A DNA stretch of 47,905 bases from a virus. The notes under the pieces were generated by a model. The model was given only the letters and a program-made list of their open reading frames with translations, had not been told where the DNA came from and searched no databases. Of this stretch, positions 1,861-42,197 are shown in pieces (position 1 is the stretch's first letter; every line of letters starts with the position of its first letter). The DNA is taken from the IMG/VR virus record IMGVR_UViG_3300042894_002669, positions 1 through 47,905 of that record; one strand, given 5' to 3'. A program made the translations under genes and the position numbers.

Positions 1861-3183
1861 ATGGATAAGAGGCCAAATGTATTCCCAACCAAAGAACAAG
1901 TAAACACATATCAAACAGAAGAAGCTAGAATTGCTGCGTTTGAGACTGAAAAAGCTGAAGCAACTAACGATATATATGTTAACGCTACTGCACCTAACGA
2001 TACACCAGAAGGGCATTATGATGCTGTTGAAGCTATGAGAATTCGTACACAACAACAAATTGAAGCTAAGAATAATTATGGTAAAGTACAACACCCAGAA
2101 TTATCAGAAAGGTTAATTCAAAGAGTTGAACAACCAGAACAACAAGTTGAGGACCCAAATGCTGAATTAATAAGACTTCGTGATGAACAATTAAGAATTA
2201 ATCAAGAAAATATTTTAAAATATCAACAACAAGCTAATCAAGCTAGTTCTAGAAATAATGAAAACACAGAAACAAATTCTGGTTTATACGAAACAAACCC
2301 ACAAACAAACATGAATCAAAACAATCAAAGTGGTCAAAATAATTATGTACCACCTACACCACCATCGGTTCCACCGATAAATAACACATCTAGTTATGGT
2401 CAAAATCCTTCGAATATAAATCCTTATATTCTTGAGATAAGTCAACCTAATTATAACGCTCCATTTGATGTGATTCCATTACCATCACAAGGTAAATTAT
2501 ACGCAAATAAAAGACCTAACATCAAAGTTGCTTATATGACAACTGCTGATGAGAATATATTAACTAGCCCTAACTTATTAGCTAGTGGTGAGTTTTTGGA
2601 GATTCTTATTAATAGAAAAATACTTGAACCAACACTTAGATATAGAGATTTAACTATTGGAGATAGAAATGCTATTATGATTTGGTTAAGAGCAACTGGT
2701 TATGGTGAGATGTATCCAGTTACAATATATGACGAGAAAAACAATCCTTTTGAAACAGATATCAATTTACAAAATCTTAAAACAAAAAACTTAGGTGCTG
2801 AACCAACTATTGAAGGGTTGTTTGATTTTGTATTACCATTAACAAAAAATAAAATTAAATTTAAATTTTTAACATGTGGTGATATTGATGATATTGAAAG
2901 AAGAGTTGAAATGGATAAACAAAATAACATACCAGTTGATAATACAACAACTTATACACTTGAGAGAATCATTGTTGAAGTAAATGGTGATAGAAATGCA
3001 AATATGATTTCAGATTTTGTATCAACACTTAGAATTGGTGATGGACAATCTTTAATGGAATACATAACAAGTATTGAGAGTGGCATTGACCTAAATATCA
3101 ATGTTACGACCCCAGGGGGAGGGTCTGTGGCCACCTTTCTTCCGCTTAACATGCGATTTTTTTGGCCTAACAGCAAACTATAA
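1861..3183 (+). CDS. T4 gp26-like baseplate hub / tail assembly chaperone-like protein, N-terminal product
   Basis: A 440-residue protein. Residues 1 to about 190 are low-complexity and rich in Gln, Asn and Pro. From about residue 200 there is a compact domain starting PFDVIPLPSQGKLY and continuing through TTADENILTSPNLL, DLTIGDRNAIMIWLR and FKFLTCGDIDDIE. I recognise this pattern from the T4 base plate (gp26-type, PF12322) family. The ORF stops at 3183, within 20 bases of a T7 run. In the +1 frame an open region continues with a helical domain (entry at 3101), so a longer shifted product is likely. Its place just upstream of the tape measure gene is where phages usually encode the tail assembly chaperone pair made by frameshifting. 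Family call moderate; chaperone role inferred. Confidence 0.65.
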   Translation: MDKRPNVFPTKEQVNTYQTEEARIAAFETEKAEATNDIYVNATAPNDTPEGHYDAVEAMRIRTQQQIEAKNNYGKVQHPELSERLIQRVEQPEQQVEDPNAELIRLRDEQLRINQENILKYQQQANQASSRNNENTETNSGLYETNPQTNMNQNNQSGQNNYVPPTPPSVPPINNTSSYGQNPSNINPYILEISQPNYNAPFDVIPLPSQGKLYANKRPNIKVAYMTTADENILTSPNLLASGEFLEILINRKILEPTLRYRDLTIGDRNAIMIWLRATGYGEMYPVTIYDEKNNPFETDINLQNLKTKNLGAEPTIEGLFDFVLPLTKNKIKFKFLTCGDIDDIERRVEMDKQNNIPVDNTTTYTLERIIVEVNGDRNANMISDFVSTLRIGDGQSLMEYITSIESGIDLNINVTTPGGGSVATFLPLNMRFFWPNSKL

Positions 3184-3442
3184 GATTCCACTTTTAGAAG
3201 AAGTTTGGATTTGTACTCAACACATGAAGAATATGACATATTTAGATGTGATGGCAATGCCGACTTACGAAAGAAGGTATTACTTAGGTATGCTTACAAG
3301 AGAATTCGAAAGAAAAGAAGAAGCGATAGAAGAAGCTAAAGAGCAAACAACTACTAGTGGTGGTAAAGGTTCTAGAACTTCTAAGGTATCGGGTCAACAA
3401 TTAAAATCAAAAATGAAAACTGGTGAAATACCACTTAAATAA
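3101..3442 (+). CDS. Frameshifted C-terminal extension of the gp26-like / tail chaperone gene
   Basis: This is an open frame at +1 relative to the gene starting at 1861, overlapping its last 83 bases. An ATG exists at 3101, but residues before about 22 read as the out-of-frame shadow of the upstream gene. The meaningful part starts near ANYKIPLLEEVW and continues with YLDVMAMPTYERRYYLGML, then a basic, low-complexity tail. The pattern of a predicted helix, a Met/Pro loop and an R-x-[FY]-Y motif is common in the C-terminal halves of baseplate-hub or tail-chaperone genes. Removing one base from the T7 run at 3157-3163 joins both frames into one protein of roughly 530 residues. Expression could be by ribosomal +1/-2 frameshift, polymerase slippage or separate initiation; a sequencing error is the dull alternative. 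Confidence 0.6.
   Translation: MLRPQGEGLWPPFFRLTCDFFGLTANYKIPLLEEVWICTQHMKNMTYLDVMAMPTYERRYYLGMLTREFERKEEAIEEAKEQTTTSGGKGSRTSKVSGQQLKSKMKTGEIPLK
3108..3163 (+). promoter_or_regulatory. Candidate recoding signal (hairpin, GGAGG and T7 slip run)
   Basis: A small hairpin, GACCC (3108-3112) with GGGTC (3121-3125), contains a GGAGG core at 3118-3122. About 30 bases further on is a T7 run at 3157-3163. The patch is unusually GC-rich for this genome and lies within the two-frame overlap. Internal SD-like sequences are known stimulators of recoding, but this spacing is longer than in classic cases. Confidence 0.4.
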
Positions 3443-3443
3443 T

Positions 3444-3474
3444 AAAATCCCCAAGTTATGGGGATTTTTGTTTT
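3444..3474 (+). terminator. Intrinsic terminator
   Basis: A 9-bp stem, AAAATCCCC with GGGGATTTT, with a 7-base loop, followed by T-rich sequence. It separates the chaperone-like pair from the gene at 3501. Confidence 0.85.
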
Positions 3475-3480
3475 AACAGA

Positions 3481-3492
3481 TATTTATAAATA
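3481..3492 (+). promoter_or_regulatory. T4-late-like promoter element
   Basis: TATTTATAAATA with TATAAATA at 3485-3492, 8 bases before the ATG at 3501 and just after a terminator. It is identical over 14 bases to the element before the gene at 1062. Confidence 0.5.
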
Positions 3493-3500
3493 AAATTAAT

Positions 3501-4949
3501 ATGAAAGTTAAACTAACAGAAACACAATACAAAGCGTTAGAGAAATTTATAGATGAAGCGAGAACAGCTGAATCACCAACATCATTGAAAAATTTATTTA
3601 ATGATAATCCAAACGCTAAATATTTTACCGTTGTTCAAAGGTTGAAAGGTGGTAATGATTCTGAATATCCTTTTGAAATATTTACACAAAATGGACATAA
3701 AGGTGTTAAAGATATCAGTATTGTTGGTAAGACAAAAGGTTGTGAAACCGATTTACGTCCAGATACTATGTTATATGGTACTTCTTTTTCACTATCATTT
3801 GGTTCTTGTGGTATTAGAAATATAAATAATGTTATTGGTGTTAAATTATATGGTGATGAAGCTTCATTAAAATCTGAAAAACCATTAGATTCAATAGAAT
3901 TAGAGCATGAATTAGATAATACTACTCAAGAATTAGCTGATAAGTATTATGATATGTTAAAAAATGTTGAGGTTGGAAGACAAATTTATATTGATAGTAA
4001 AAACAAATGGGATGGTATTGTAGTATCGAAAAGACCAGAAAGTATTAGTATTGAGTTATATAAACATGGAATACCTATTAATGAAGCTGATGATAATTCT
4101 GATATGGAATGGAATGTACAACCAGATGAACCTAAAAAAACCAAAGAAAAAACTAAACCAAAGAAAAAAGGTGTTATTTTAACATTGGATTTATCTTCAA
4201 ATCCTTTTTATATTGAGAATAATAAATTAATGCTTAAAGGTGTATCATTCGATAGTGAAACTAATAAAAAAAGCGAATTTGTTGTACAAGTCGATAAGTT
4301 TAATACTAATACTGCTCAAACTAAACCAGAAGCTAATCCAGAGTTAGAACCAGAAACCCCTCAAGATGTTAAATCAGATGAGGAATTAAGAAAAGAGGCT
4401 AAAGCTGCTTATGAATTGATATTAAACGACCCATTACTAAAAAAGGCTTTTTATAAAAAACCAAGCTTCTGGAATCTATTTGTTGCTGAATTAAAAGGTA
4501 AGAAAGCAATTGGTAAGGGAATTTTACCAACACTTCAATTATTAAATAGATATGGAACAAATAAATTAAATGATGAACTTGATGCTGAATTTATTCAAGG
4601 TAAAAGTGTGTCGTTTCAAACATATGGAAAACCGTATACAATTAATGTTGAAGATAAGGTATTCCAATTAGATGCTGGTAAAATTTATAAGGCTGTTGTT
4701 AGAAATTATAAAACTGGTGATAATTTTTATGTTTTAGATTCTAAAGAAGGTAATGGAAATGGTTATAAGTTATATATTAAATCTAAAACAGAAGTTCCAG
4801 ATGTTTATAGATGTGAACTAATTAGATATATTAGAAAAGCAAATAATGAAATCAAAGAATATAATCACCAAGGTGATGTGTATATAAAATTAGAAAAGAA
4901 AAGTGATGGTTATAAATCATTATCTCAATCTGAAGAAAACCCTAAATAA
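3501..4949 (+). CDS. Hypothetical protein preceding the tape measure gene
   Basis: A 482-residue protein, not recognised. Residues 1 to about 190 look globular and mixed alpha/beta. A Lys-rich spacer (around residue 215, EPKKTKEKTKPKKKG) leads to a short beta-rich part, and a Pro/Glu-rich linker (about 272-295) leads to a C-terminal globular segment with several Tyr/Lys-rich strands. No signal peptide or membrane helix. It starts after a late-promoter-like element and ends only 7 bases before the tape measure gene, so the two are probably co-transcribed. A role in tail assembly is likely from position only. Confidence 0.7.
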   Translation: MKVKLTETQYKALEKFIDEARTAESPTSLKNLFNDNPNAKYFTVVQRLKGGNDSEYPFEIFTQNGHKGVKDISIVGKTKGCETDLRPDTMLYGTSFSLSFGSCGIRNINNVIGVKLYGDEASLKSEKPLDSIELEHELDNTTQELADKYYDMLKNVEVGRQIYIDSKNKWDGIVVSKRPESISIELYKHGIPINEADDNSDMEWNVQPDEPKKTKEKTKPKKKGVILTLDLSSNPFYIENNKLMLKGVSFDSETNKKSEFVVQVDKFNTNTAQTKPEANPELEPETPQDVKSDEELRKEAKAAYELILNDPLLKKAFYKKPSFWNLFVAELKGKKAIGKGILPTLQLLNRYGTNKLNDELDAEFIQGKSVSFQTYGKPYTINVEDKVFQLDAGKIYKAVVRNYKTGDNFYVLDSKEGNGNGYKLYIKSKTEVPDVYRCELIRYIRKANNEIKEYNHQGDVYIKLEKKSDGYKSLSQSEENPK

Positions 4950-17685: not shown

Positions 17686-18318
17686 ATGGTAGCAAATATA
17701 GTTTCAAAAAATAGTGTGGATGTTTCACAAGACTTTAATGTGGTGGATTCTATTGATAAGATTATCTTAGGAATCCCTACATTAATAGTTGGTTTTGATT
17801 TAACCGAATCATTATATCCAGACTTCGATATTCTAGACATATGTGTTAAAGATGATATATATTGGACATTTAAAAAAATTGAAAAGAGAGATAAGTTCAA
17901 CGAAGATTTAGATTGGTTTATAACCAAAGTTTATTCTGATTTAATCAAAGATGTTAATTATCTATTTGTTGACCCAATATTATTAAAACCAAAAACACTA
18001 ATCAAAATAGTTAGAAAAATTTATAGTATTGAGAATTTAACAACATATGTATATAACGATATGTTATACATATATGGTGATAAAATAGTATTTGGTGTCG
18101 ATTTAAAATTATTTAAGTTTATTGGGTTTGATATTAAAAAATTAAAAGATAAAATTAATCACATTAGTACTGACTTTTTGGATGATGATGATGATGACAT
18201 ACTTATAGAATATAAAAACATTGTAGAAACACTAGGTAATTCAGTGCGATACATACCTTATTTATTCACTATAAGAAATGGACAAAAAAATACTACTAGC
18301 ATCTTTCATAATAAATAA
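17686..18318 (+). CDS. Hypothetical protein
   Basis: A 210-residue protein, not recognised. It is rich in Asp, Ile and Leu, with predicted alternating strands and helices and an acidic run of six Asp near residue 168. No signal peptide or membrane segment. Its 3' end overlaps the relic start of the next phage gene (MDKKILLASFIINK, reading from 18278). This indicates that the gene now at 19017 originally overlapped it, before an HNH endonuclease was inserted. It may have its own sigma-A-type promoter. Confidence 0.65.
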   Translation: MVANIVSKNSVDVSQDFNVVDSIDKIILGIPTLIVGFDLTESLYPDFDILDICVKDDIYWTFKKIEKRDKFNEDLDWFITKVYSDLIKDVNYLFVDPILLKPKTLIKIVRKIYSIENLTTYVYNDMLYIYGDKIVFGVDLKLFKFIGFDIKKLKDKINHISTDFLDDDDDDILIEYKNIVETLGNSVRYIPYLFTIRNGQKNTTSIFHNK

Positions 18319-18343
18319 AAATGACAGAAGAAGAAAAAATTAA
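18278..18343 (+). pseudogene. Relic 5' end of the gene now starting at 19017
   Basis: An ATG at 18278, in a different frame from the upstream gene, encodes MDKKILLASFIINK before running into the HNH gene. This aligns with MEKKTLLLATFIFNER at the start of the gene at 19017 (about 10 of 14 positions identical with one gap). I read it as the original start of that gene, cut off by the insertion. Confidence 0.7.
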
Positions 18344-18986
18344 ATTAAGAAAGATAAAATCTAAGGAATATTACCTAAAAAATAGGGAAAATATTTTAAA
18401 TAAACGTAAATTATATCGAGAAAATAATAGTTCTAAAATAAAAGAATATAACGATAATAATAAAGAAAAAAATAAAACTAGGAAAAAAAATTGGTATATT
18501 ACCAATAAAGAACATGTTAAAAAATACGGTGCAATATATAGAAAAAATAATAAAATAAATATAAATAACTATAAAAAAATATATTATAATAATAATAAAT
18601 CTAACATTAGAAGTTACTTTAAATATTTACGTAATAATAATCCTATAATTAAATTAACTGATAATATTAGAAGAAATATTAGATATGGTTTCACTAATAA
18701 TGGTTTTATTAAAAATAATAAAACACAAGATATTCTTGGTTGTTCATTTGATGAATTTAAAATATATTTAGAATCGTTATGGGAACCATGGATGAATTGG
18801 GGTAATTATGGTAACCCTAAAGATGGGATTATTGAACCAAATAAGACATGGGATATTGACCATATTATTCCTATATCAACAGCCATAACTGAAGATGATA
18901 TTATAAGACTTAACCATTACACCAACCTACAACCGTTATGTACCAAAATAAATCGACACATTAAACGAAACTCTAGTAAATATTGA
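18321..18986 (+). CDS. HNH homing endonuclease
   Basis: A 221-residue protein. The first 110 residues are extremely Asn/Lys/Tyr-rich and basic, suited to DNA binding. The C-terminal part has the HNH signature WDIDHIIPIS, then LNHYTNLQPLC and NRHIKR, the usual form of phage HNH enzymes that make a nick or break at a homing site. It is inserted about 14 codons after the original start of the gene now at 19017, and the intact copy follows 30 bases after its stop. Its codon use is even more A-rich than its neighbours, consistent with recent transfer. Confidence 0.85.
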   Translation: MTEEEKIKLRKIKSKEYYLKNRENILNKRKLYRENNSSKIKEYNDNNKEKNKTRKKNWYITNKEHVKKYGAIYRKNNKININNYKKIYYNNNKSNIRSYFKYLRNNNPIIKLTDNIRRNIRYGFTNNGFIKNNKTQDILGCSFDEFKIYLESLWEPWMNWGNYGNPKDGIIEPNKTWDIDHIIPISTAITEDDIIRLNHYTNLQPLCTKINRHIKRNSSKY

Positions 18987-19016: not shown

Positions 19017-19421
19017 ATGGAAAAAAAAACCTTATTATTAGCTACATTTATTTTTAATGAAAGAGTTGAGTGGTTCTTAAGTTATCTTGAGAACAGATTC
19101 AGTATTCCCAGAACAAAAGTATTTTGTTATAAGAATCTAGATGATGAATCAAAGATGATAATCACCTTTAAATTAGTAATACCAGAAAACAAGAGAATGA
19201 ATTTAAAAGATTTATTCCCAAGTGCTATTCCTATCCATAAAAAAGGTGATGCAATATACACAATAAATGCATTGAATATGTTAATCGATTCAATTAGTGG
19301 TGGTGATGTTGGTAATATTGACCGTAGTTCAGTTAAAATAAATTGGGATGAATATCAAAATAAATTAATCTTAACCAAAGATAAGGAACTAGTATTTTTG
19401 AATATATCTAAGGTTTTTTAA
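19017..19421 (+). CDS. Hypothetical protein with restored N-terminus
   Basis: A 134-residue protein, not recognised; mixed alpha/beta, no membrane segment. Its first 15 residues (MEKKTLLLATFIFNE) repeat, in diverged form, the relic start at 18278 before the HNH gene. The rest of the gene appears intact, so the insertion did not disrupt the product. Likely start is the ATG at 19017. Confidence 0.7.
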   Translation: MEKKTLLLATFIFNERVEWFLSYLENRFSIPRTKVFCYKNLDDESKMIITFKLVIPENKRMNLKDLFPSAIPIHKKGDAIYTINALNMLIDSISGGDVGNIDRSSVKINWDEYQNKLILTKDKELVFLNISKVF

Positions 19422-21681: not shown

Positions 21682-21716
21682 GTTCTAAAATAACATGAGT
21701 ATTAACTTAACAAAAG

Positions 21717-22820
21717 ATGGCCAAAAAACCAGAAAAAAAAGCAATTGAAAAAAAACCATTTGATTTAGATGCGTTTTTAGAAACAGAAAACATAAATTCA
21801 GAACCAAAGGATAAAGATTTAACATGGATTCCATTATCTAAGGCTTGGCATGACGCATTAAAATTACCAGGTTTTCCACGTGGTTATGTATCTCTAGTTA
21901 GAGGTTACTCAAACACTGGTAAATCAACTGCTTTCTATGAAGCAATTGCTGGATGTCAAAAAATTGGTGATATGGCAATTGTCATTGAAACAGAAGGTAA
22001 CTGGAATACGGAACACGCAAAACAAGTTGGTGTTAAATTTATTGAAGTTGTTAATGAGAAAACTGGTGAAATAACAGAAAAACCAGATGGGTTTATTCTT
22101 ATGAGAAGTTCTGATTTGTATAATAGATATAAAAACTACGACCATCAGAATAGTAAGATGATGACCAAACCAACAAGACTTGAGCCAGTTATCGAAGATG
22201 TTTCTTACTTTATATCTGAAATGATTCAAAAACAAGAGGAAGGTATTATCAATACTAATATGTGTTTCTTATGGGATTCAATTGGTACACTTAACTGTTA
22301 CAAATCTGCTTGTTCAAACACAAGTAACAATATGTGGAATGCTGGTGCTATGGGTGCTTTTCAAGCTATAGTTAATTTTAAAATCCCTTCTAGTCGTTCA
22401 TTAGAAAGTGAATACACAAATACGATGGTTTGTGTTCAAAAGATTTGGTTAGATAGTATGAATGGTGTTGTTGTTAAACATAAAGGTGGTGAGTTCATGT
22501 TCTTTAACTCTAGAATAATTGTTCACATCGGTGGTATTTTAACACATGGTACTAAAAAATTAACAGCTAAAGCATTAGGTCAAGATTTCCAATATGGAAC
22601 TGAAGCTAAGATTAGATGTGAGAAGAATCACGTTACTGGTATTGAAAGAAATGGTACTATTGCATCAACACCACATGGGTATGTTAACCCAGATGAGTTA
22701 GATGCTTACAAAACAAAAAATAGAAAGTTCATCCATGACGCATTAAATGTTAGTTATGATGTAGAACTTGAGTTTATTGAAGAAGAAGGAACGATGGAAG
22801 GTGACGACATCAGAGAATAG
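21717..22820 (+). CDS. uvsX: UvsX/RecA-like recombinase
   Basis: A 367-residue protein. A Walker A motif, GYSNTGKST, is at residues 63-71; a Walker B-like strand, MCFLWDSIGT, lies near 184. The RecA core continues with VIETEGNW after Walker A and a Gly/Lys-rich loop (IWLDSMNGVVVKHKGG) where the DNA-binding loops occur. The N-terminus carries a Lys-rich arm. The enzyme forms filaments on ssDNA and exchanges strands, working with the gp32-like protein encoded just upstream. Length is close to the usual UvsX size. Start chosen at the ATG 85 bases after the SSB stop. Confidence 0.85.
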   Translation: MAKKPEKKAIEKKPFDLDAFLETENINSEPKDKDLTWIPLSKAWHDALKLPGFPRGYVSLVRGYSNTGKSTAFYEAIAGCQKIGDMAIVIETEGNWNTEHAKQVGVKFIEVVNEKTGEITEKPDGFILMRSSDLYNRYKNYDHQNSKMMTKPTRLEPVIEDVSYFISEMIQKQEEGIINTNMCFLWDSIGTLNCYKSACSNTSNNMWNAGAMGAFQAIVNFKIPSSRSLESEYTNTMVCVQKIWLDSMNGVVVKHKGGEFMFFNSRIIVHIGGILTHGTKKLTAKALGQDFQYGTEAKIRCEKNHVTGIERNGTIASTPHGYVNPDELDAYKTKNRKFIHDALNVSYDVELEFIEEEGTMEGDDIRE

Positions 22821-22846
22821 AGTATTAACTATTTAAATGTTCAAAC

Positions 22847-25894: not shown

Positions 25895-25995
<101 letters not shown>

Positions 25996-26027: not shown

Positions 26028-26738
26028 ATGGTGAAAATATATAAAATAGTTGACCCTAGATTTGAATTTGAGGTTCGATATATTGGTAAAACAAAAATGA
26101 CATTAAAAAAAAGAATGGGTGCTCATTTATATCATGGTAGACATAAACGAAAAACACCTCTTTATTTATGGATTAATAAATTATTAAATGAAGAGGTGGT
26201 ACCTTTAATTATTTTAATTGAAGAAGTAGATAAAAATATATGGGTTGAAAAAGAAATATACTGGATAAAATATTATAGAAGTGTGTTTGGTGATAAGATT
26301 CTTAATTTAAGTGATGGTGGTGAATCTAACTTAAATCTAAGTCCATCTAAAGAAACTAGATTAAAAATATCTTTAAGTAATAAAGGTAAAACATGTTTTT
26401 GGAAGGGTAAAACACTAAACAAAATACATAAAGATAATATTAGTCTTGGTGGTTTAGGGTTAAAAAGAAGTGAAGAAACTAAAAAAAAAATTAGTGATAG
26501 TTTAACGGGTAGAAAATTAGATGACGAACATAAATTAGCACTATCAAATGGGCATAATAAATTTAAAAAAAGTGTTTTAAAAATATGTCCTAAAACTAAT
26601 GAAGTTTTAGATGAATATAGTTCAATATCCGAAGCTATTAAAGAAAATAAATTAGAGAAACTTAAAACTAATTTAATTGGTGTTTGTAAAGGTAGAGGTA
26701 AAACATGTGGTGGGTATATTTGGAGATATAAAGATTAA
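26028..26738 (+). CDS. GIY-YIG homing endonuclease with NUMOD domains
   Basis: A 236-residue protein. The N-terminal catalytic domain has the GIY-YIG pattern in the form KIYKIVDP, then VRYIGKT, and a following Glu in the helix WVEKEIYWI. Residues about 120-185 carry NUMOD3-type motifs ([10 protein letters not shown] and [11 protein letters not shown]), and the C-terminus is a NUMOD1-like helix-turn-helix ([12 protein letters not shown]), giving the catalytic-linker-DNA-binding plan of the I-TevI type. It separates the relic nrdB starts from the intact nrdB start 16 bases downstream. Very A-rich codons. Firm family call; likely homing target is the 5' end of nrdB. Confidence 0.85.
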
Positions 26739-26754: not shown

Positions 26755-27726
26755 ATGAGTGAAAAAAAAATGGTGATTGAACCAATACTTAAAGAAAATG
26801 AAAATAGGTTTGTATTATTTCCAATAGTACATCAAGATTTATTTGATTATTATGAAATAGCTCAAGAAGCTATGTGGACACAAAAAGAAGTTGATTTATC
26901 AAAAGATATTGACCATTGGAATAATAAATTAACTGATAATGAACGTTTCTTTATTACAAACGTATTAGCATTCTTTGCAGCATCTGATGGTATTGTAAAT
27001 GAAAATTTAGCAGAGAACTTTTTAAAGGAAGTTCAATATACTGAAGCTAAATTCTTCTATGGATTCCAAGTAATGATGGAAAACATTCATAGTCATATGT
27101 ATTCTTTACTTATCGATACATACATCAAAGACATCTCTGAACGTAATAAAGCGTTTAAAGCAATCGAATATATGCCACCAGTAAAGAAAAAGTCTGATTG
27201 GGCTTTAAAATGGATTGAATCAGAATCATTTGCTGAAAGACTAGTGGCATTCGCTGCTGTTGAAGGTATATTCTTCTCTGGTTCATTTTGTAGTATATTC
27301 TACTTAAAATCTAGGGGTTTAATGCCAGGTCTTTGTGATACGAATGCCTTCATATCTCGTGATGAAGCTTTACATTGTGATTTTGCAATACATTTGGTTA
27401 ATAACCATTTAATCAATAAACCAACTGAATCTAGAATTAGAGAAATTCTATTATCAGCATTAGAAATTGAAAAAGAATTCATCACAGAATCATTACCAGT
27501 ATCACTTATTGGTATGAATTCAGAGTTGATGAAACAATACTTAGAATTTGTTGTTGATGGTTTATTAATTCAATTTAATTGTGAAAAAGAGTTTAATTCA
27601 AAGAATCCATTTGAGTTCATGAATCAAATTGCGTTGAAAACTAAACAAAACTTTTTTGAAGGTCGTTCAACAGAATATAAAACAGCTGATTTAAGTGGTC
27701 CGATATCATTTGATGAAGAAATTTAA
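26755..27726 (+). CDS. nrdB: Ribonucleotide reductase small subunit, eukaryote-like class Ia
   Basis: A 323-residue protein, the radical-generating subunit that makes deoxyribonucleotides with NrdA. Conserved R2 motifs are present: EVDLSKDI (first carboxylate), [16 protein letters not shown], then EAKFFYGFQ and [13 protein letters not shown], the latter with the Glu, His and radical Tyr in the standard E-X2-H-X3-Y spacing, and [11 protein letters not shown]. The wording is closest to eukaryote-type R2 proteins. I chose the ATG at 26755 because the N-terminus then matches the relic at 25895; an upstream in-frame ATG would lie inside the endonuclease gene. It is 16 bases after the GIY-YIG gene and 10 before nrdA. 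Confidence 0.9.
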
Positions 27727-35700: not shown

Positions 35701-36842
35701 CACTTATATCTGGATTGGGTATGGGTACCTATACTATTGAAGGTACTGATTCACTAGGTAGAGTAATTAGTAGAGATGTAGTTGTTTCTGGTCCAGCTCC
35801 ACTAGATGCGTATGCTTTTGTTAGTAAAAACGCTTTAACAGTTTCTAGTAATGATGGTGAGATTACAATAAATAATATAAACAACGGTGTTCAACCATAT
35901 ACATATGTATTAAAAGATGCTAATGGAACAATAGTTAGAGGTCCATCACCAGCAACACCTTCAGTAATAACTGGAATACCATTTCAAGACCCAATAGGAT
36001 ATACTATTGAAATTACCGATAGTGTTGGTACCATGGTTAGTGTTGATAAATTAATAGTAACTGGGTTACCTATTTTAAATGGTGTTACAACTAAAATAGA
36101 TACAACATGTTATGGTAGTACTGATGGTAAGATATCGATAACACCACAAGGTGGTAAACCACCTTATTCTTTTTCAACAACTGGACCTAATGGTTTTAGT
36201 TCTACAAATAGTAATTTAGTTAGTTTAGTTTCTGGTACATATACAACGATTATTACTGATAGTTTATCAACACCAGAAACAGTAACTATTATAACAAATG
36301 TTGATTCTATTAATCCAAAAATGACTTTAACTGCTGGCTCAACTAGTGAATTAAATAAACAATGTAAAATTGATAGGTATTTAGTTACTGTGTATTTAGA
36401 TTATTCATTTGATGCACCTACAACATCAAATTTACAATTCCAAGATATAAATGGTCAGTGGCACGATATTTCAATGCCATATGTTAATAATACAACACCA
36501 TTAAAATTCATAGTGGATAAAACATTAGTATCAACTAGTATTAAAATAAGAGCTAAATATGGTACTATAGCTTGTTATAGTGATGATTTAAATATATTAA
36601 CTTCAACTATGGTAACTCCAACGATTGAATTAAATGGTAGTATAAGTACAACACTTAATACAAACCCATCAATCACATCGTTATATAAACATAATATAAG
36701 TTCATCTGGTGGTATTGGAACTGTTACTGGTAACCCATATAACATAACATCTATTTATGTTAGTCCTATCTATGACAATAATCTGAATATAACAACAATA
36801 CTTACTGATAGTGTTGGGTGTACTAAAACAATTAATGGGTAA
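32766..36842 (+). CDS. Large tail/baseplate protein with SprB-like repeats
   Basis: A 1358-residue protein. The N-terminal part (TIVGRVTVNNGFGVPNAKVSV, then SGDFMIFGVPVGTYTVHVDV) looks like a carboxypeptidase-regulatory/beta-sandwich domain. Residues about 465-515 are strongly hydrophobic, with a long helix (SILSTIIILINAVIISIINF) of membrane-like character. From about residue 935 there are at least four repeats resembling SprB adhesin repeats of Flavobacteriia: C-x-G-S-x-D-G-K-I, GGKPPYSF, SGTYTTIITDS; the last ends DSVGCTKTI. A receptor- or surface-binding role is inferred. It stands where T4 has wedge genes. It ends with a TAATG junction shared with the next gene. Confidence 0.65.
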   Translation: MSNTVRIKTTPNGDDKYIKVNIEQDFDFIEILSLKISQEEAYTRFCSDYGTIVGRVTVNNGFGVPNAKVSVFIPLDDTDKTNPEIKNIYPYEIITDKTSEGVRYNLLPKDGAPDNDCFTTIGTFPSKREVLDNPTMLEVYCKYYKYTSTTNNSGDFMIFGVPVGTYTVHVDVDVSDIGIISQRPYDLISQGTPEKMFDSPTKFKGGKNLDKLVQIKTFNTGVNVQPFWGDTENCEIGITRLDIPLNHTVIPSAIFTGSIFGDQDKQSVNKRCRPRNKLGNLCEQITGEGSIEMIRKTIDGDIERFDVDGGRVIDENGSWSYQIPMNLDYMVTDEFGGLIYSQDPNIGIPTRASVRFRIGMDETGGQGRLRTRGKFLVPNNPSTQGEIDYNFGPETNNGPATKDSSFKDLHWNKIYTVSNFIARYQTNKLTSTRGMTAIKNVDACAGDKTPFPYNRVDTEVNPMFTNICVIMSILSTIIILINAVIISIINFIIWVIKKIIGFINSLIDVANWFGLSIPNIPEPEYAKCLSITCPSEEPNMVYAPGCVTIGGEPFNSGYTELTNEYGNVDTSNVSMLKCLAFQMAKSMGLFQYEFYNDWINGSLFSFLLKYKKKRKNNGKPGSEKFCEYDCDDFTNDPNYTGVNSNNNGNPDNNCHTQYLVDSCFSNIIIDFDAQNRGYSTGGLREGIIKNVNGELYYAASTHNVGYKLFATDIMCLGSVFECDWQGIPKVNDLLIPTTYKLPPDVSDISEEGVFEATGVVDLNDTHGGLFFNVDCVGIHVDSNGCLNLRHICEFGVNIDEITFDSAGTPITPDGNIGSLDIDDDNGKWFRDVFFELNKNTTSPTSFSLPTSGATTDFNTGNNGVYDFTSPIKNGNDYLSFRNFTNGDNDYGQTKHSYFFYFGLLPGKTSLDKMNSKYFTKCVVLKRDEFIIQSTATSTGSNTQIGSITFSFIGGKAPISYTVVGPNYSINGSIQSNTSTLISGLGMGTYTIEGTDSLGRVISRDVVVSGPAPLDAYAFVSKNALTVSSNDGEITINNINNGVQPYTYVLKDANGTIVRGPSPATPSVITGIPFQDPIGYTIEITDSVGTMVSVDKLIVTGLPILNGVTTKIDTTCYGSTDGKISITPQGGKPPYSFSTTGPNGFSSTNSNLVSLVSGTYTTIITDSLSTPETVTIITNVDSINPKMTLTAGSTSELNKQCKIDRYLVTVYLDYSFDAPTTSNLQFQDINGQWHDISMPYVNNTTPLKFIVDKTLVSTSIKIRAKYGTIACYSDDLNILTSTMVTPTIELNGSISTTLNTNPSITSLYKHNISSSGGIGTVTGNPYNITSIYVSPIYDNNLNITTILTDSVGCTKTING

Positions 36843-38620
36843 TGACTACATATAGAACACAACAAAGATTAAACAACGAAACATCAACAAAATCGACAAA
36901 TACTGATACGTTTTTGAAGATTAATTTGGATGGTAAAGAAAGGTTATTACCTCCAGACCAAATTAATAAAATAGTTAATGTTGGTGAAAGATTTAACACA
37001 GAAAGACAACGTTGTAATTATTATAGAGTTTTAGGGACAATAAACCCTACAATTTCAAATGCTTTATTTAATTTAGATAATAGCACCAATAATAATTGGC
37101 AAACGTGGAAAGGTTTTAATGAGTTAGTTTTTGTTGATACATCATATCCTAAAGATGGTGATGTAGCTGATTCAAACGATGTTAATTATGTTGATTCTAT
37201 TAAAAATTTCTTAAAAGAAGTTAATGGTTGGTTTGGTTATAATGAACCAGATAAAACCAAGTCTTCTTTATGTAATTATTATGATATGGAACCAACTAGA
37301 AATCGTTTTTCTTTTATCCAAGATACCAAACCATATAATAGTCAAAATGGTTCACCATCAGTTAAGAATTGGGAATTAACAATAACATATCCACATCATA
37401 ACGATACTGGACATACAATGGTTAATGGTGGGTTAATGGTTATAGAAGCGATACCAGCTATAGTTGCGACAAAATCAATGACAGCATTTGGTGTTGCATG
37501 TTTACATAATTTAATAATCGGTGATACAGTTAAAATTACTGGAACAACTGGTTATAATGGTGTTTATAATGTTATTCGAACTGGATTAGATAATGGTGAT
37601 TATAAAGATTATTATTTTGTTATTGATGTACCTAATAGTGGTAATATTGGTCCAAATTCAAGAATGAAAAGAATGGTATCAGATAAAGAATCTGAATATT
37701 ATTTTAGAGTATTTAAAAAAATTAAAACTAGAAGTACACCAATGATTGAACAAGATGATTATGAAACATATAAATTATCTTTTAGTGAAAATGTTTATTC
37801 TGACCCAATTACTCAATTTGTATTTAATGAGGATATAGATATTAGTGATTTGGTTGATAATTTAGGTAGACCATTGAGTGAATTATACTTAACTAAAATT
37901 AAAACTAGTAGCAACAGTTTATTCACTAAAGTATCTTCTGGTATTGAAACACCATTTATACCAGAATTAAAAACAAGTGGAACTAATACATTTTTACAAT
38001 CAATTCCAGCTATTAATTTAATCCATAACGGTGGGTTATTACCGTTTAAGACACACACACCACTAGAACCTCAAGTTTCTATAAATGATAATTATTTTTA
38101 TGGTGATTTGGTTGAATATAATATGTATGAAGTCCAAGAAACGATTTTAGCTAATGTATCACATAGGTTTAACACTTTGAATAGAGAAACATTAGCTAAC
38201 TTCTCATATGTTGATAAAATAGGTGAATCTCCAACATTTAAAAATATAGATTTAGGTCCAAGACAAGAAGGTTATTTTTATCAAGCACATGAACTTATTA
38301 AAATTAGAGAATTTTCAACTTACATAGAACAAGGTGATAGTAGTACTGAAGGTATTCCATCTTATGCTGTTAATTTAGGTGATGGTAGATACTTATGGAG
38401 AGACTTGTTAGACATTGGTTATAACCAATCAGATGAAAAACCATTAGATTACCCATTTTTAAATGGGTGTCATTATATGTATACAAATGATTGTTTCCTT
38501 GTAAGAAGACAAGACGCTTTTGATAATTGGGGTTTGTATTATTATAAATTTCCAGCTGACCCATTAGGTGAGCGAATGACTGATAAATTTACAACTAATA
38601 CCGAAGAAGATGCTTGTTAA
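36842..38620 (+). CDS. Hypothetical structural protein, probable baseplate
   Basis: A 592-residue protein starting in the TAATG overlap with the previous gene, so translation is probably coupled. No domain recognised. It is rich in Asn, Asp, Tyr and aromatic residues, with a globular middle (GLMVIEAIPAIVATKS, VKITGTTGYNGVYNVI) that looks like a beta-rich domain. The last codons GATGCTTGTTAA contain the original start ATG of the next structural gene, since ATGCTTGTTAAT recurs at 39555. Confidence 0.7.
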   Translation: MTTYRTQQRLNNETSTKSTNTDTFLKINLDGKERLLPPDQINKIVNVGERFNTERQRCNYYRVLGTINPTISNALFNLDNSTNNNWQTWKGFNELVFVDTSYPKDGDVADSNDVNYVDSIKNFLKEVNGWFGYNEPDKTKSSLCNYYDMEPTRNRFSFIQDTKPYNSQNGSPSVKNWELTITYPHHNDTGHTMVNGGLMVIEAIPAIVATKSMTAFGVACLHNLIIGDTVKITGTTGYNGVYNVIRTGLDNGDYKDYYFVIDVPNSGNIGPNSRMKRMVSDKESEYYFRVFKKIKTRSTPMIEQDDYETYKLSFSENVYSDPITQFVFNEDIDISDLVDNLGRPLSELYLTKIKTSSNSLFTKVSSGIETPFIPELKTSGTNTFLQSIPAINLIHNGGLLPFKTHTPLEPQVSINDNYFYGDLVEYNMYEVQETILANVSHRFNTLNRETLANFSYVDKIGESPTFKNIDLGPRQEGYFYQAHELIKIREFSTYIEQGDSSTEGIPSYAVNLGDGRYLWRDLLDIGYNQSDEKPLDYPFLNGCHYMYTNDCFLVRRQDAFDNWGLYYYKFPADPLGERMTDKFTTNTEEDAC

Positions 38621-38621
38621 T
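38610..38621 (+). repeat. 12-bp direct repeat, left copy (relic start of gene at 39555)
   Basis: ATGCTTGTTAAT at the end of the upstream gene is identical to 39555-39566. It contains both the stop of the upstream gene and a start ATG whose reading continues MLVNEI, like MLVNQYKI in the gene at 39555. The two copies flank the endonuclease at 38666. Confidence 0.75.
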
Positions 38622-38641
38622 GAAATTTTTAATGTTTGTTA

Positions 38642-38653
38642 TATTTATAATAA
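38642..38653 (+). promoter_or_regulatory. Late-promoter-like element
   Basis: TATTTATAATAA, 12 bases before the endonuclease ATG at 38666; a one-base variant of TATAAATA. It may let the inserted gene be expressed late. Confidence 0.3.
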
Positions 38654-38665
38654 AAAGAAATATAA

Positions 38666-39565
38666 ATGAAAAAATTAACGACTGAAGAATTCATAATTAA
38701 AGCTAAATCAATTCATGGTGATAAATATGATTATTCTATAACTAATTATGTAAATTCATATAGTAAAATTAAAATAACATGTCCAGAACATGAAAATTTT
38801 GAACAAACACCAAATAGCCATTTAAATGGTAGTGGTTGTTATAAATGTGGTGTTGAAAATAGAAGTGAAAAACAAAGAATGGTAAATGAGGATTTTATTT
38901 GTAAGGCTAATTTAGTATATGGTGATAAATATGATTACTCACTAGTTGAGTATTTTAATAATAAAACAAAAATTAAAATAATTTGTAGTAAACATGGTGT
39001 TTTTGAAATAAAACCAAATGACCATTTAAATGGTAGTGGTTGTGGTAGATGTTTTGGTAGAGGAAAAACCACTGAAGATTTTATCACTGAAGCAATTAGT
39101 AAATATGGTCTTTTATATTCGTATAAATTAACAGAATATAAAAGTACGCATAAAAAAATTAAAATAATATGTAGTATCCATGGAATGTTTGAAAAATCAC
39201 CAAATCATCATTTAAATGGTGGCGGTTGCCCGATATGTAAAGAGTCTAAAGGTGAATCTGAAATAAGAAAATACCTAACAGAAAATAATATTAATTTCTT
39301 ACCACAACATAGATTCCCAGATTGTAGAGATATTAGACCACTACCTTTTGACTTTTATTTACCAGATTATAATACATGTATTGAGTACCAAGGTGAACAA
39401 CATTACAAACCAATCAATTATTTTGGTGGTTTTAAGGTTTTTAAACAACAACAAAAAAGAGATAGAATAAAATTAAATTATTGTGTTGATAAACAAATTG
39501 ATTTGATAATTATTAAATATGATGAAAAAATAACTAATAAATTAAAACAATATTATGCTTGTTAA
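38666..39565 (+). CDS. Homing endonuclease with three zinc-ribbon-like repeats
   Basis: A 299-residue protein. Three repeats of about 60 residues each have the form H-G-D-K-Y-D-Y, then K-I-x-C-x-x-H, then H-L-N-G-S-G-C-x-x-C (for example at about 18-60, 80-128, 143-191); the Cys/His would bind zinc and recognise DNA. The C-terminal about 100 residues form a PD-(D/E)XK-like nuclease (LPFDFYLPDYNTCIEYQGEQH). It is closely related to the endonuclease at 40430, about 860 bases away. It is inserted at the start of the gene at 39555; its last 11 bases overlap that gene's restored start. Confidence 0.75.
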   Translation: MKKLTTEEFIIKAKSIHGDKYDYSITNYVNSYSKIKITCPEHENFEQTPNSHLNGSGCYKCGVENRSEKQRMVNEDFICKANLVYGDKYDYSLVEYFNNKTKIKIICSKHGVFEIKPNDHLNGSGCGRCFGRGKTTEDFITEAISKYGLLYSYKLTEYKSTHKKIKIICSIHGMFEKSPNHHLNGGGCPICKESKGESEIRKYLTENNINFLPQHRFPDCRDIRPLPFDFYLPDYNTCIEYQGEQHYKPINYFGGFKVFKQQQKRDRIKLNYCVDKQIDLIIIKYDEKITNKLKQYYAC

Positions 39566-40370
39566 TCAATATAAAATAAATCTTTCATTAATGTCTGGTG
39601 CTACAGCAACTACTATTAATATTCCTATTAATATGGAATACCAATTGGTTGACCAATCTGAATTAATTGAGCGAGTATTTGTTGAAACTGAAATTGAAAA
39701 AGCAATAAACCCAATTATTGATTACGAAAAAACTAGATTCTTACCAACAGATTTACTAGGTAATCATGTTGATAAGATTACATATGTTGTTAATTTGGAT
39801 GGTAAATTAACTTATGGTGATATTGGTTTCACTGATGATGATATTAAACTTGAAACTGAAAAGTTCAAACAAACATTCCTTAATTTATCATTCTACGATA
39901 GTGACAACCCATTAATACAAAACTTAATCAGTTTTATCACATTATACCCCAGCTTAACACCAATGGACTTATACCAAACTAGTGGACCAAATATTTCAGT
40001 TGGTCAACCAATACCAGCTAGTCAGATATTTTTAACATTCTCTGTTGATAACCCTATACTTAACCCTATAGGTAATGCACAAGGTTATTACATATATGAT
40101 TTTAAAGATGAATTAGTAATTAATGGTGCACCAAAGTATCTTTATATGAGAGCATCTTTTAAAAACGCTAAAAGTGGTAAGTCAACTAACCTTATGGTAA
40201 GTAATGCCGCATTACCTATAGACCAATTGATAACTAAATTATATACTAGATATGTTTTGGTTAGGAAAAATAATGGGTACTACTATGAAATTGATAACAC
40301 TTACTCAAATAACGTATCTTATTCAACAAATAACGCTACGGTTAACTTATATCAAATATTAGCAACATAA
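39555..40370 (+). CDS. Hypothetical structural protein with restored start
   Basis: A 271-residue protein, not recognised; mostly beta-strand with Asn/Ile/Tyr-rich composition, and without membrane segments, like neighbouring tail proteins. Its start MLVNQYKI overlaps the endonuclease stop region, while the original start lies at 38610. It ends in another TAATG overlap (40368-40372) with a second relic, MEVLKRKIL. So this gene is flanked by two endonuclease insertions, one at its own start and one at the start of the gene that followed it. Confidence 0.7.
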   Translation: MLVNQYKINLSLMSGATATTINIPINMEYQLVDQSELIERVFVETEIEKAINPIIDYEKTRFLPTDLLGNHVDKITYVVNLDGKLTYGDIGFTDDDIKLETEKFKQTFLNLSFYDSDNPLIQNLISFITLYPSLTPMDLYQTSGPNISVGQPIPASQIFLTFSVDNPILNPIGNAQGYYIYDFKDELVINGAPKYLYMRASFKNAKSGKSTNLMVSNAALPIDQLITKLYTRYVLVRKNNGYYYEIDNTYSNNVSYSTNNATVNLYQILAT

Positions 40371-40399
40371 TGGAAGTATTAAAACGCAAAATTTTATAA
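40370..40399 (+). pseudogene. Relic 5' end of the gene now starting at 41316
   Basis: ATG at 40370, sharing TAATG with the upstream stop, encodes MEVLKRKIL and then stops. The intact gene at 41316 begins MSSVIKRKILLE. I read it as the original start of that gene, separated by the endonuclease at 40430. Confidence 0.7.
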
Positions 40400-40429: not shown

Positions 40430-41332
40430 ATGAGAAAACTAACAACAAATGAATTTATTGTAAAATGTGCGATGATACATGGAAACGTTTATGATTATTC
40501 ATTAGTCGACTATAAAAATAATAAAACAAAGGTTAAAATAATTTGTTCGATACATGGTGAATTCGAACAAACACCAAACTGTCACCTAGATAATCAAGGT
40601 TGTCCATATTGTGGTCGTGAAAAATTTAAGTTAAATAAAACTTTATCTAATAATAAATTCATAAATAAAGCTAAGAATATACATAATGGAATCTTTGATT
40701 ATTCCTTGGTTGAATATAAAAAATATGATGAAAAAGTTAAAATAATTTGTTCGATACATGGTGAATTCGAACAAACACCACATAGCCATCTTTTAGGTAG
40801 TGGGTGTCAACATTGTGGTGGTGTTAAAAGAAAAAATTTATATGAATTTATAAAACAAGCAAAAGAAAAACATGGTGATAAATATGATTATTCTTTGGTC
40901 GATTACATCAATACAAAAACCAAGGTTAAAATACTTTGCCCAAAACACGGAGAATTCAATCAATTAACAAATAACCATATTTTAGGACAAGGTTGTCCAA
41001 TTTGTAAAGAATCAAAAGGTGAAAAAGTGGTGCGAAATTATTTAATTAGTAATAACCTAAAATTCATAAAACAAAAATATTTTAATGATTGTAAAGATAT
41101 TAGACCATTACCTTTTGATTTTTATCTACCAGATTATAATGTATGTATTGAATATGATGGAATACAACATTTTAAACCAATTGACATATTTGGTGGTGAG
41201 AAAGGTTTTAATAGAGTCAAAAAAACAGATTTAATAAAAACAAACTATTGTTTAAACAATGATATTAGGTTAATTAGAGTTAATTATAACGAAGATGTAA
41301 ATGAAAAATTAAAAAATGAGTTCGGTTATTAA
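40430..41332 (+). CDS. Homing endonuclease, paralog of the one at 38666
   Basis: A 300-residue protein with the same plan as 38666-39565: three zinc-ribbon-like repeats (H-G-x-Y-D-Y, C-x-x-H-G-E-F, then C-x-x-C) and a C-terminal nuclease, LPFDFYLPDYNVCIEYDGIQH. Two of its repeats share 45 identical bases at DNA level (40532-40576 and 40736-40780), so they duplicated recently or are kept alike by conversion. It is inserted after about 9 codons of the gene at 41316. Its last 17 bases overlap that gene's restored start. Confidence 0.75.
   Translation: MRKLTTNEFIVKCAMIHGNVYDYSLVDYKNNKTKVKIICSIHGEFEQTPNCHLDNQGCPYCGREKFKLNKTLSNNKFINKAKNIHNGIFDYSLVEYKKYDEKVKIICSIHGEFEQTPHSHLLGSGCQHCGGVKRKNLYEFIKQAKEKHGDKYDYSLVDYINTKTKVKILCPKHGEFNQLTNNHILGQGCPICKESKGEKVVRNYLISNNLKFIKQKYFNDCKDIRPLPFDFYLPDYNVCIEYDGIQHFKPIDIFGGEKGFNRVKKTDLIKTNYCLNNDIRLIRVNYNEDVNEKLKNEFGY
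40532..40576 (+). repeat. 45-bp repeat within endonuclease gene, copy 1
   Basis: Identical to 40736-40780. It encodes part of the zinc-ribbon-like module (KIICSIHGEFEQTP). Same frame in both copies, so it is an internal coding repeat. Confidence 0.85.
40736..40780 (+). repeat. 45-bp repeat within endonuclease gene, copy 2
   Basis: Second copy of the 45-base coding repeat at 40532-40576. Confidence 0.85.
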
Positions 41333-42197
41333 AAGAAAAATATTATTAGAGGATAGTATTGATAGAAATTATAATAGCCCTACGTGGGGAACTATTACGG
41401 CTACAACATTCTATTTAAAAATTAATTTAACACAAACTGTTGATGATATGGGTTTATTTACTGATATAGAATATATACCTAAAGATAATAATAACCCATC
41501 ATCACCAGATTATACTTTATTGGTAGATAAATTAAGTTCTAGTGGTTTTACATTCCCATTTATGACTGGTGCAACATCTCAACCGATGACTGGAATCACT
41601 AGTACTAATAAAAACATATTAAGAATGCCTAGTAGTGTTGAATCAGACTATTATGTTTATGGTAATTCACTAATAACTGGGTTTACTGATAGTAAATTAG
41701 AAGATGTTAAGTCTTATGATAGAAATAATCAGTATAGAATCGGGTTCGATACCAATTCTCAAGACTACATTAACTATAATAATTTAAATATACTTGGTGT
41801 TGATAGGGTTTTTTCTATGGGGGAACCTAGAATATATGTATTTAACACACCTAATGATAGTAATTTAGGGACTAATAATCAAATTTATGGGTTACAGTAT
41901 TTAGATTATACTGGGGAAACTAGAAGTGTTGTGATAGATAACATCAATTCAACAATTCCACTTACTCAATTTAAATATATTGGTGAGGGATGGAATGAAA
42001 CAAACACATCTTTATCAGCTATTACCAAAGAAGAGTATTTATTTGGTATAATTAATCCACCAGAAGTACAAAGTGACGTATTTATAGATAGAGGACAGAC
42101 TAGTGTGTTAGATATTCATTTAAGATTATCTGAAATCAAAAACTTAGGTGAATTAAGTAGATATGGTAATGGATTTTACAAACTAAATAAACAATAA
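41316..42197 (+). CDS. Hypothetical structural protein with restored start
   Basis: A 293-residue protein, not recognised. It is beta-rich with many Asn, Ser and Thr. The C-terminal section, VFIDRGQTSVLDIHLRLSEI followed by GELSRYGNGFY, looks like a small conserved domain shared by structural proteins in this phage type, but I cannot name it. Its start MSSVIKRKILLE is the restored copy; the relic is at 40370. The ATG lies inside the last 17 bases of the endonuclease gene. Confidence 0.7.
   Translation: MSSVIKRKILLEDSIDRNYNSPTWGTITATTFYLKINLTQTVDDMGLFTDIEYIPKDNNNPSSPDYTLLVDKLSSSGFTFPFMTGATSQPMTGITSTNKNILRMPSSVESDYYVYGNSLITGFTDSKLEDVKSYDRNNQYRIGFDTNSQDYINYNNLNILGVDRVFSMGEPRIYVFNTPNDSNLGTNNQIYGLQYLDYTGETRSVVIDNINSTIPLTQFKYIGEGWNETNTSLSAITKEEYLFGIINPPEVQSDVFIDRGQTSVLDIHLRLSEIKNLGELSRYGNGFYKLNKQ

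Follow-up and report, generated by a model that had tools for sequence, protein, structure and literature searches.

An endonuclease gene between two copies of its neighbour's start in a phage genome, a layout shared by further endonuclease genes of the phage

The A/B junction and its endonuclease

In the window, the whole stretch of 47,905 nt that was analysed, two genes that we call A and B are separated by a gene for an endonuclease, and these genes, like those at the other endonuclease sites of the window described below, lie on the + strand. Gene A, the upstream gene, is an ORF of 592 aa (36842..38620) whose end is conserved among relatives; it gave no Pfam or PHROG family match. Gene B, the downstream gene, is an ORF of 271 aa (39555..40370). 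No homologue of gene B, and no named-phage relative of B or D, was found in the collection of named phages. The endonuclease gene (299 aa, 38666..39565) is preceded by an inserted, non-coding leader (38622..38665). Leader and gene are flanked by two identical copies of the 12-mer ATGCTTGTTAAT, at 38610..38621 and 39555..39566, and the window contains no other copy. The earlier note had reported this repeat, with the upstream stop in the left copy and the downstream start in the right one, and the codons of the ORFs confirm it. The left copy contains the last codons and stop of gene A (...GAA GAT GCT TGT TAA), together with a remnant of gene B's original start, its first 12 nt, and corresponds to the empty site in relatives. 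The right copy contains the start of gene B (ATG CTT GTT AAT). The endonuclease ORF also finishes here, with its final codons and its stop (...TAT TAT GCT TGT TAA), a point on which the note was silent; thus, the endonuclease and gene B now overlap by 11 bp, as A and B once did. Without the relatives, the repeat would be no more than moderately unusual: when the right flank was shuffled 2000 times, a 12-bp match was reached in 3 cases, and one more gene of the window has a flank match of 11 bp. The repeat gains its weight from the comparison with uninterrupted relatives.

The endonuclease combines zinc-binding treble-clef repeats with a Vsr-like nuclease domain at its C-terminus. Pfam identifies DUF4379/DUF723 zinc fingers, and the PHROG matches are to families 559 and 9084 (endonuclease, homing endonuclease). 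The best Foldseek PDB matches of the AlphaFold model (pLDDT 89, pTM 0.56) are to the Vsr endonuclease (1cw0/1vsr), with high probability and a weak E of 0.03. Residues E197, D229, E240 and H246 are conserved in the alignment of the Vsr-like endonucleases. The EDxHD endonuclease I-Bth0305I has a Vsr-like nuclease fold, and the comparison with EDxHD enzymes is based on the fold matches, with their weak E of 0.03, and on the four conserved residues, a search for a PDB sequence match to the 299-aa protein having found none. I-Bth0305I, a homing endonuclease from a phage whose DNA-binding part is extended, has been treated among intron-associated endonucleases (PMC3943268). The present protein is alike in being a phage endonuclease with an extended DNA-binding part, its Vsr-like character coming from the fold matches. 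I-Bth0305I is grouped with intron-associated enzymes, whereas Rfam gave no match to an intron or other RNA family within the window. Genes A and B are complete without splicing, so the endonuclease lies outside an intron or intein. By its domains, its presence in one phage and absence from relatives, and its position outside any intron, the gene belongs with the free-standing phage homing endonucleases, with cutting and transfer as predicted activities.

The leader contains the late-promoter-like motif TATTTATA at 38642–38649. This motif occurs at window positions 1044, 3481, 7665, 19433, 26008, 38642, 40418 and 45834, no more than 60 nt upstream of many genes, and it precedes each of three endonuclease genes, those starting at 26028, 38666 and 40430. 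It resembles a T4-type late promoter, a promoter reading taken from the motif, and the copies ahead of the endonucleases may serve the downstream gene as well.

Uninterrupted junctions in relatives

A scan with protein B collected 54 viral contigs. L001, a separate 72.6-kb contig from a near-identical phage, has the same insert at A/B. The endonuclease was present at the junction in one contig, and there were 33 distinct junctions without it. In 27 of these 33, the stop of A and the start of B lie in a single ATG(N)5TAA copy, an exact overlap of 11 bp; contig L024 has the 11-bp overlap too, with the alignment start shifted. The earlier note had proposed that the two genes overlapped in these bases before the insertion, and that in a relative lacking the endonuclease a single copy would supply the stop as well as the start. 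The relatives bear out both proposals, and the junction of L041/L042 is exactly ATGCTTGTTAAT, in single copy. Distant relatives, with 33–44% identity in protein B, also carry the 11-bp overlap. It follows that the ancestral state is the overlap, from which the insertion is derived.

The exceptions to the overlap are few. The ends of A and B are 28 bp apart in L002 and L003, 30 bp apart in L017 and 31 bp apart in L037, and in L043 the genes overlap by 1 bp. Contigs L002/L003, which have no endonuclease, form the sister group of the window with support of 100/100, and their 28-bp spacer leaves some probability that in this clade a spacer came before the endonuclease. Their copies of the repeat have diverged from one another, and the two window copies are identical at 12 of 12 positions. 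Both window copies have a C at position 4, a base that is rare among the single-copy junctions (2 of 27); the sharing of this C favours one recent source for the two copies. Sliding identity against L002/L003 is flat, with no step beside the insert, and a recombination boundary at that position was rejected. The spacers of L002/L003 and L017-19 were considered as scars of a lost endonuclease. Their resemblance to the endonuclease 3′ end reached p 0.08–0.11 against shuffles in the best cases, the L017 spacer is similar also to the late-promoter motif, and the idea was dropped.

Other endonuclease genes of the phage

Six endonuclease genes of the phage were examined, five of which can be compared on both sides; the sixth, at 96–986, has its left flank at the window edge, and the relatives of its next gene are too distant. 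All five, which include Vsr-like, GIY-YIG and HNH types, sit between two copies of the downstream gene's start, at A/B, B/C, nrdB, the HNH site and a locus of the same phage outside the window (L164). The duplicated starts are 12 bp, 27, about 38, 46 and 78 nt long, the A/B repeat being the shortest. At four sites, those of gene C, nrdB, the HNH endonuclease and L164, the copies have diverged and resemble different alleles, with a native-like copy on the left and a working copy of a different allele on the right. At two of these four, the HNH site and L164, each of the relatives tested is more similar to the left remnant than to the right copy, which is the one in use. At A/B both copies are identical, so there is no allele contrast.

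The second Vsr-like endonuclease (40430..41332) follows gene B, is of the same family, 52% identical to the first, and was likewise assigned from Pfam, PHROG and the alignment. To its left lies a remnant of the gene C start of 27 nt (40370..40396), whose layout, ATAATGGAAGTATTAAAACGC.., is that of the intact B/C junction in relatives, ATAATGGAAGT(A/T)ATTAAACG or similar. The stop of the endonuclease is 17 bp inside the gene C start, which is different in sequence, ATGAGTTCGGTTATTAAAAG, so that gene C (41316..42197) begins MSSVIKRKIL instead of MEVLKRKIL. The left remnant matches the L030 allele at 20 of 21 positions, and the right start matches L009/L048 equally well (20/21). The stops of the phage's three Vsr-like genes all fall within the start of the following gene, at depths of 11, 17 and 13 bp.

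At nrdB, the remnant is 46 nt long, MKEPILKNNPDRFVL (25895..25940), and stands left of a GIY-YIG endonuclease with NUMOD3, as identified by Pfam (26028..26738). In relatives with intact helicase/nrdB junctions, the helicase gene leads almost straight into the nrdB start, ATGAAAGAACC or similar. The remnant is nearest to the type found in L108/L087/L083, and the replaced start of nrdB (26755..27726) matches a different allele, L082, at 12 of 12 residues. In the close relative L082 (67–1893), the helicase gene beside nrdB has an apparent intein. After the nrdB remnant, window positions 25941–25995 hold a run of some ten AAT units, followed by AATCCAAATAGATTAGTC; the latter has the look of a further and shorter nrdB remnant, as if the site had been struck more than once.

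The HNH-type endonuclease is an ORF of 221 aa (18321..18986), called from its sequence motif and with no Pfam match. A remnant of the start of gene 19017–19421 lies to its left (18278..18315), inside the end of gene 17686–18318, and in relatives the two genes overlap here. Comparison with relatives indicates that the start of the downstream gene (19017..19421) has been replaced (MEKKTLLLATFIF): the left copy is nearer than the right in 8 of 8 relatives (28–29 versus 16–21 of 38 bases). At L164, the downstream gene's first 26 codons lie left of the third Vsr-like endonuclease and a diverged copy lies right of it, and the left copy is the nearer in 10 of 10 relatives (55–66 versus 48–58 of 78 bases).

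Related arrangements occur in other phages. In L197/L198, a related endonuclease is enclosed by a perfect repeat of 48 bp, which starts from the ATG of a gp6-like baseplate gene. L079 is a 3′-end mirror case, in which a convergent gene has had its 3′ end duplicated (23/24 bp). At all the sites described, L197/L198 and L079 included, the endonuclease 3′ end faces the target gene. Two overlapping surveys of 50–60 endonuclease loci found long flanking duplications at only four further loci (L165, L074, L079 and L197), in a scoring by alignment that misses short or diverged footprints, two of the window's own among them. The start-duplication layout thus appears to be recurrent, not universal. In L074 (2998–4058), a diverged copy of the next gene's start precedes the endonuclease, the next gene being peptidyl-tRNA-hydrolase-like by eye; this is a candidate for the same layout. 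A further survey match, L208, was rejected as a tandem endonuclease repeat, not a flanking gene-start footprint: at 2971–4477 a zinc-finger endonuclease is present in tandem copies with similar starts, suggesting that the endonuclease gene itself was duplicated.

Origin and significance of the layout

Comparison of the sequences shows that the ancestral junction was a one-copy overlap, that the insertion is derived, and that four more endonuclease genes of the phage share the layout. The earlier observation on the 12-bp repeat is thereby confirmed and its interpretation supported, in a wider setting than the note had given it. We think it probable that a free-standing homing-type endonuclease gene was inserted at the start of gene B, in an acquired segment that ended with a complete B start. 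The insert would have consisted of its own leader, a zinc-finger array and the Vsr-like nuclease, entering at the 11-bp overlap of A and B. The predicted product is the end of A with the remnant of B's first 12 nt, then the endonuclease, then the start of B, a layout that leaves A and B whole and provides the endonuclease with a stop codon from within the B start. We suggest that the endonuclease initiates the event by breaking the target gene within its first codons. Repair of the right side would draw on a molecule carrying the endonuclease beside its own version of the gene start, and the left side would be joined without long homology, so that the native start remains as a remnant. The cutting site would be destroyed either by the insertion or by the changed start, and the length of the remnant would mark how far into the gene the cut fell, from 12 to 78 nt. 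At A/B, the sharing of stop and start preserves the neighbours and keeps an upstream stop codon beside gene B. At nrdB, the GIY-YIG protein is predicted to cut the allele MKEPILKNNPDRFV and to spare the other allele. Several observations count against this reading. Identity to L002/L003 shows no step beside the insert, and in the two surveys long flanking duplications were confined to four further loci. The identical copies at A/B carry no mark of a "foreign start" there, and the 28-bp spacer of L002/L003, which lack the endonuclease, means that the junction was possibly opened before the endonuclease came.

The spacer of L002/L003 is the basis of a different order of events, in which a small duplication or spacer opened the A/B overlap, the endonuclease entered the spacer later, and the repeat is the older feature. 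The sister clade L002/L003/L045, with the gene ends 28 bp apart and no endonuclease, is as this order would have it, and junctions have been opened also in L017-19 (30 bp) and L037 (31 bp). However, the diverged copies in L002/L003, set against the identical window copies with their rare C, make the window duplication look younger than the split, and a pre-existing spacer does not predict five other sites where a duplicated start and an endonuclease occur together. We regard a spacer that came first as unlikely.

The short perfect direct repeats around the insert, and the perfect 48-bp repeat in L197/L198, also call to mind the target-site duplication of a transposon, made by a staggered cut and fill-in. 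For such an origin, the repeat lengths vary too widely (12, 27, about 38, 46, 48 and 78), even inside one protein family, and the repeats start at or near a start codon. The copies at four sites have diverged, like different alleles. The insert has no terminal inverted repeats at its ends, contains a nuclease ORF only and encodes no transposase. We hold this origin to be very improbable. The suggestion of the earlier note, that the small duplication was created on insertion, stands in so far as the single-copy overlap is ancestral and the insertion derived; it does not stand in the sense of a transposon-like target duplication, given the varied lengths and diverged copies at the other endonucleases. 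That the repeat is a chance match or an assembly artefact is scarcely credible. The shuffles make a 12-bp flank match not impossible somewhere among 33 genes, but the single-copy overlap was predicted beforehand and then found in relatives, and the same structure is present in a separate contig. Chance and artefact are refuted because empty sites exist.

An insertion of the endonuclease gene together with a complete B start has a parallel in fungal mitochondria, where mobile-endonuclease gene hybrids are known at Allomyces atp6 and at Glomus atp6, atp9, cox2 and nad3. In these, an endonuclease arrives with a foreign C-terminus, and the native C-terminus, which is nearer to relatives, is left behind (PMC3630166). 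The fungal hybrids and this phage are alike in having an endonuclease with two copies of one gene end, one the left-over native copy and the other a diverged working copy (PMC3630166). In the fungal cases, the 3′ end is replaced, in mitochondria, with LAGLIDADG or GIY-YIG enzymes, whereas in the phage it is the 5′ end, with Vsr-like, GIY-YIG and HNH enzymes. The sharing of stop and start codons between neighbours is a phage feature, in contrast to the fungal hybrids.

The seg and mob genes of T4-like phages are stand-alone endonuclease genes between or overlapping phage genes, and they have been linked to co-conversion of their flanks (PMC2988022). The present genes are likewise stand-alone endonuclease genes among phage genes. 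In T4 it is the upstream gene with which overlaps have been described; in the present phage the endonuclease runs at its end into the start of the gene that follows, and a remnant of the native start stays behind. Duplicated gene starts go unmentioned in that review of free-standing T4 endonucleases (PMC2988022). Passages of a further paper describe phage nucleases with CapR/DUF723 zinc fingers near essential genes and tie them to genetic exchange (PMC10448857). Going by those passages, nucleases with such zinc fingers are a shared trait, with DUF723 here too; the main zinc-finger nucleases of that paper are of the T5orf172 type, and the passages gave no gene-end duplication beside the nuclease genes. 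Among the open-access papers searched, as distinct from subscription journals, we found no description of 5′-end replacement in phages with the native start left behind; its fungal 3′-end mirror is already known.

The wider question is by what route homing endonuclease genes that lack introns settle in compact genomes without damage to genes, and how they avoid cutting themselves. In one virus of bacteria, five insertions of three nuclease types have left the same readable footprint. The footprint, a native start left behind and a replacement in use, is a directional record of insertion. The remnant points to the expected cut site, and the two alleles to the sequences expected to be cut and to resist. 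The finding shows one way in which selfish endonuclease genes may spread into a densely packed genome and leave their neighbours whole. More tentatively, such inserts could be natural "cleave and rescue" cassettes, in which the endonuclease cuts the start of a conserved gene and brings along a version of that start which resists cutting, with the result that only progeny having the cassette survive; the targets would be conserved phage genes, such as baseplate or tail genes and ribonucleotide reductase. If so, this would be a general route for intron-less selfish genes into essential, tightly packed genes.

Two minor observations concern other parts of the phage. The recA/uvsX-like gene at 21717–22820 is flanked by an 11-bp match, GAGTATTAACT, at about 21690–21720 and at 22821–22831 of the window, which could be due to chance. 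The contig of the same phage contains a few further nuclease-like ORFs.
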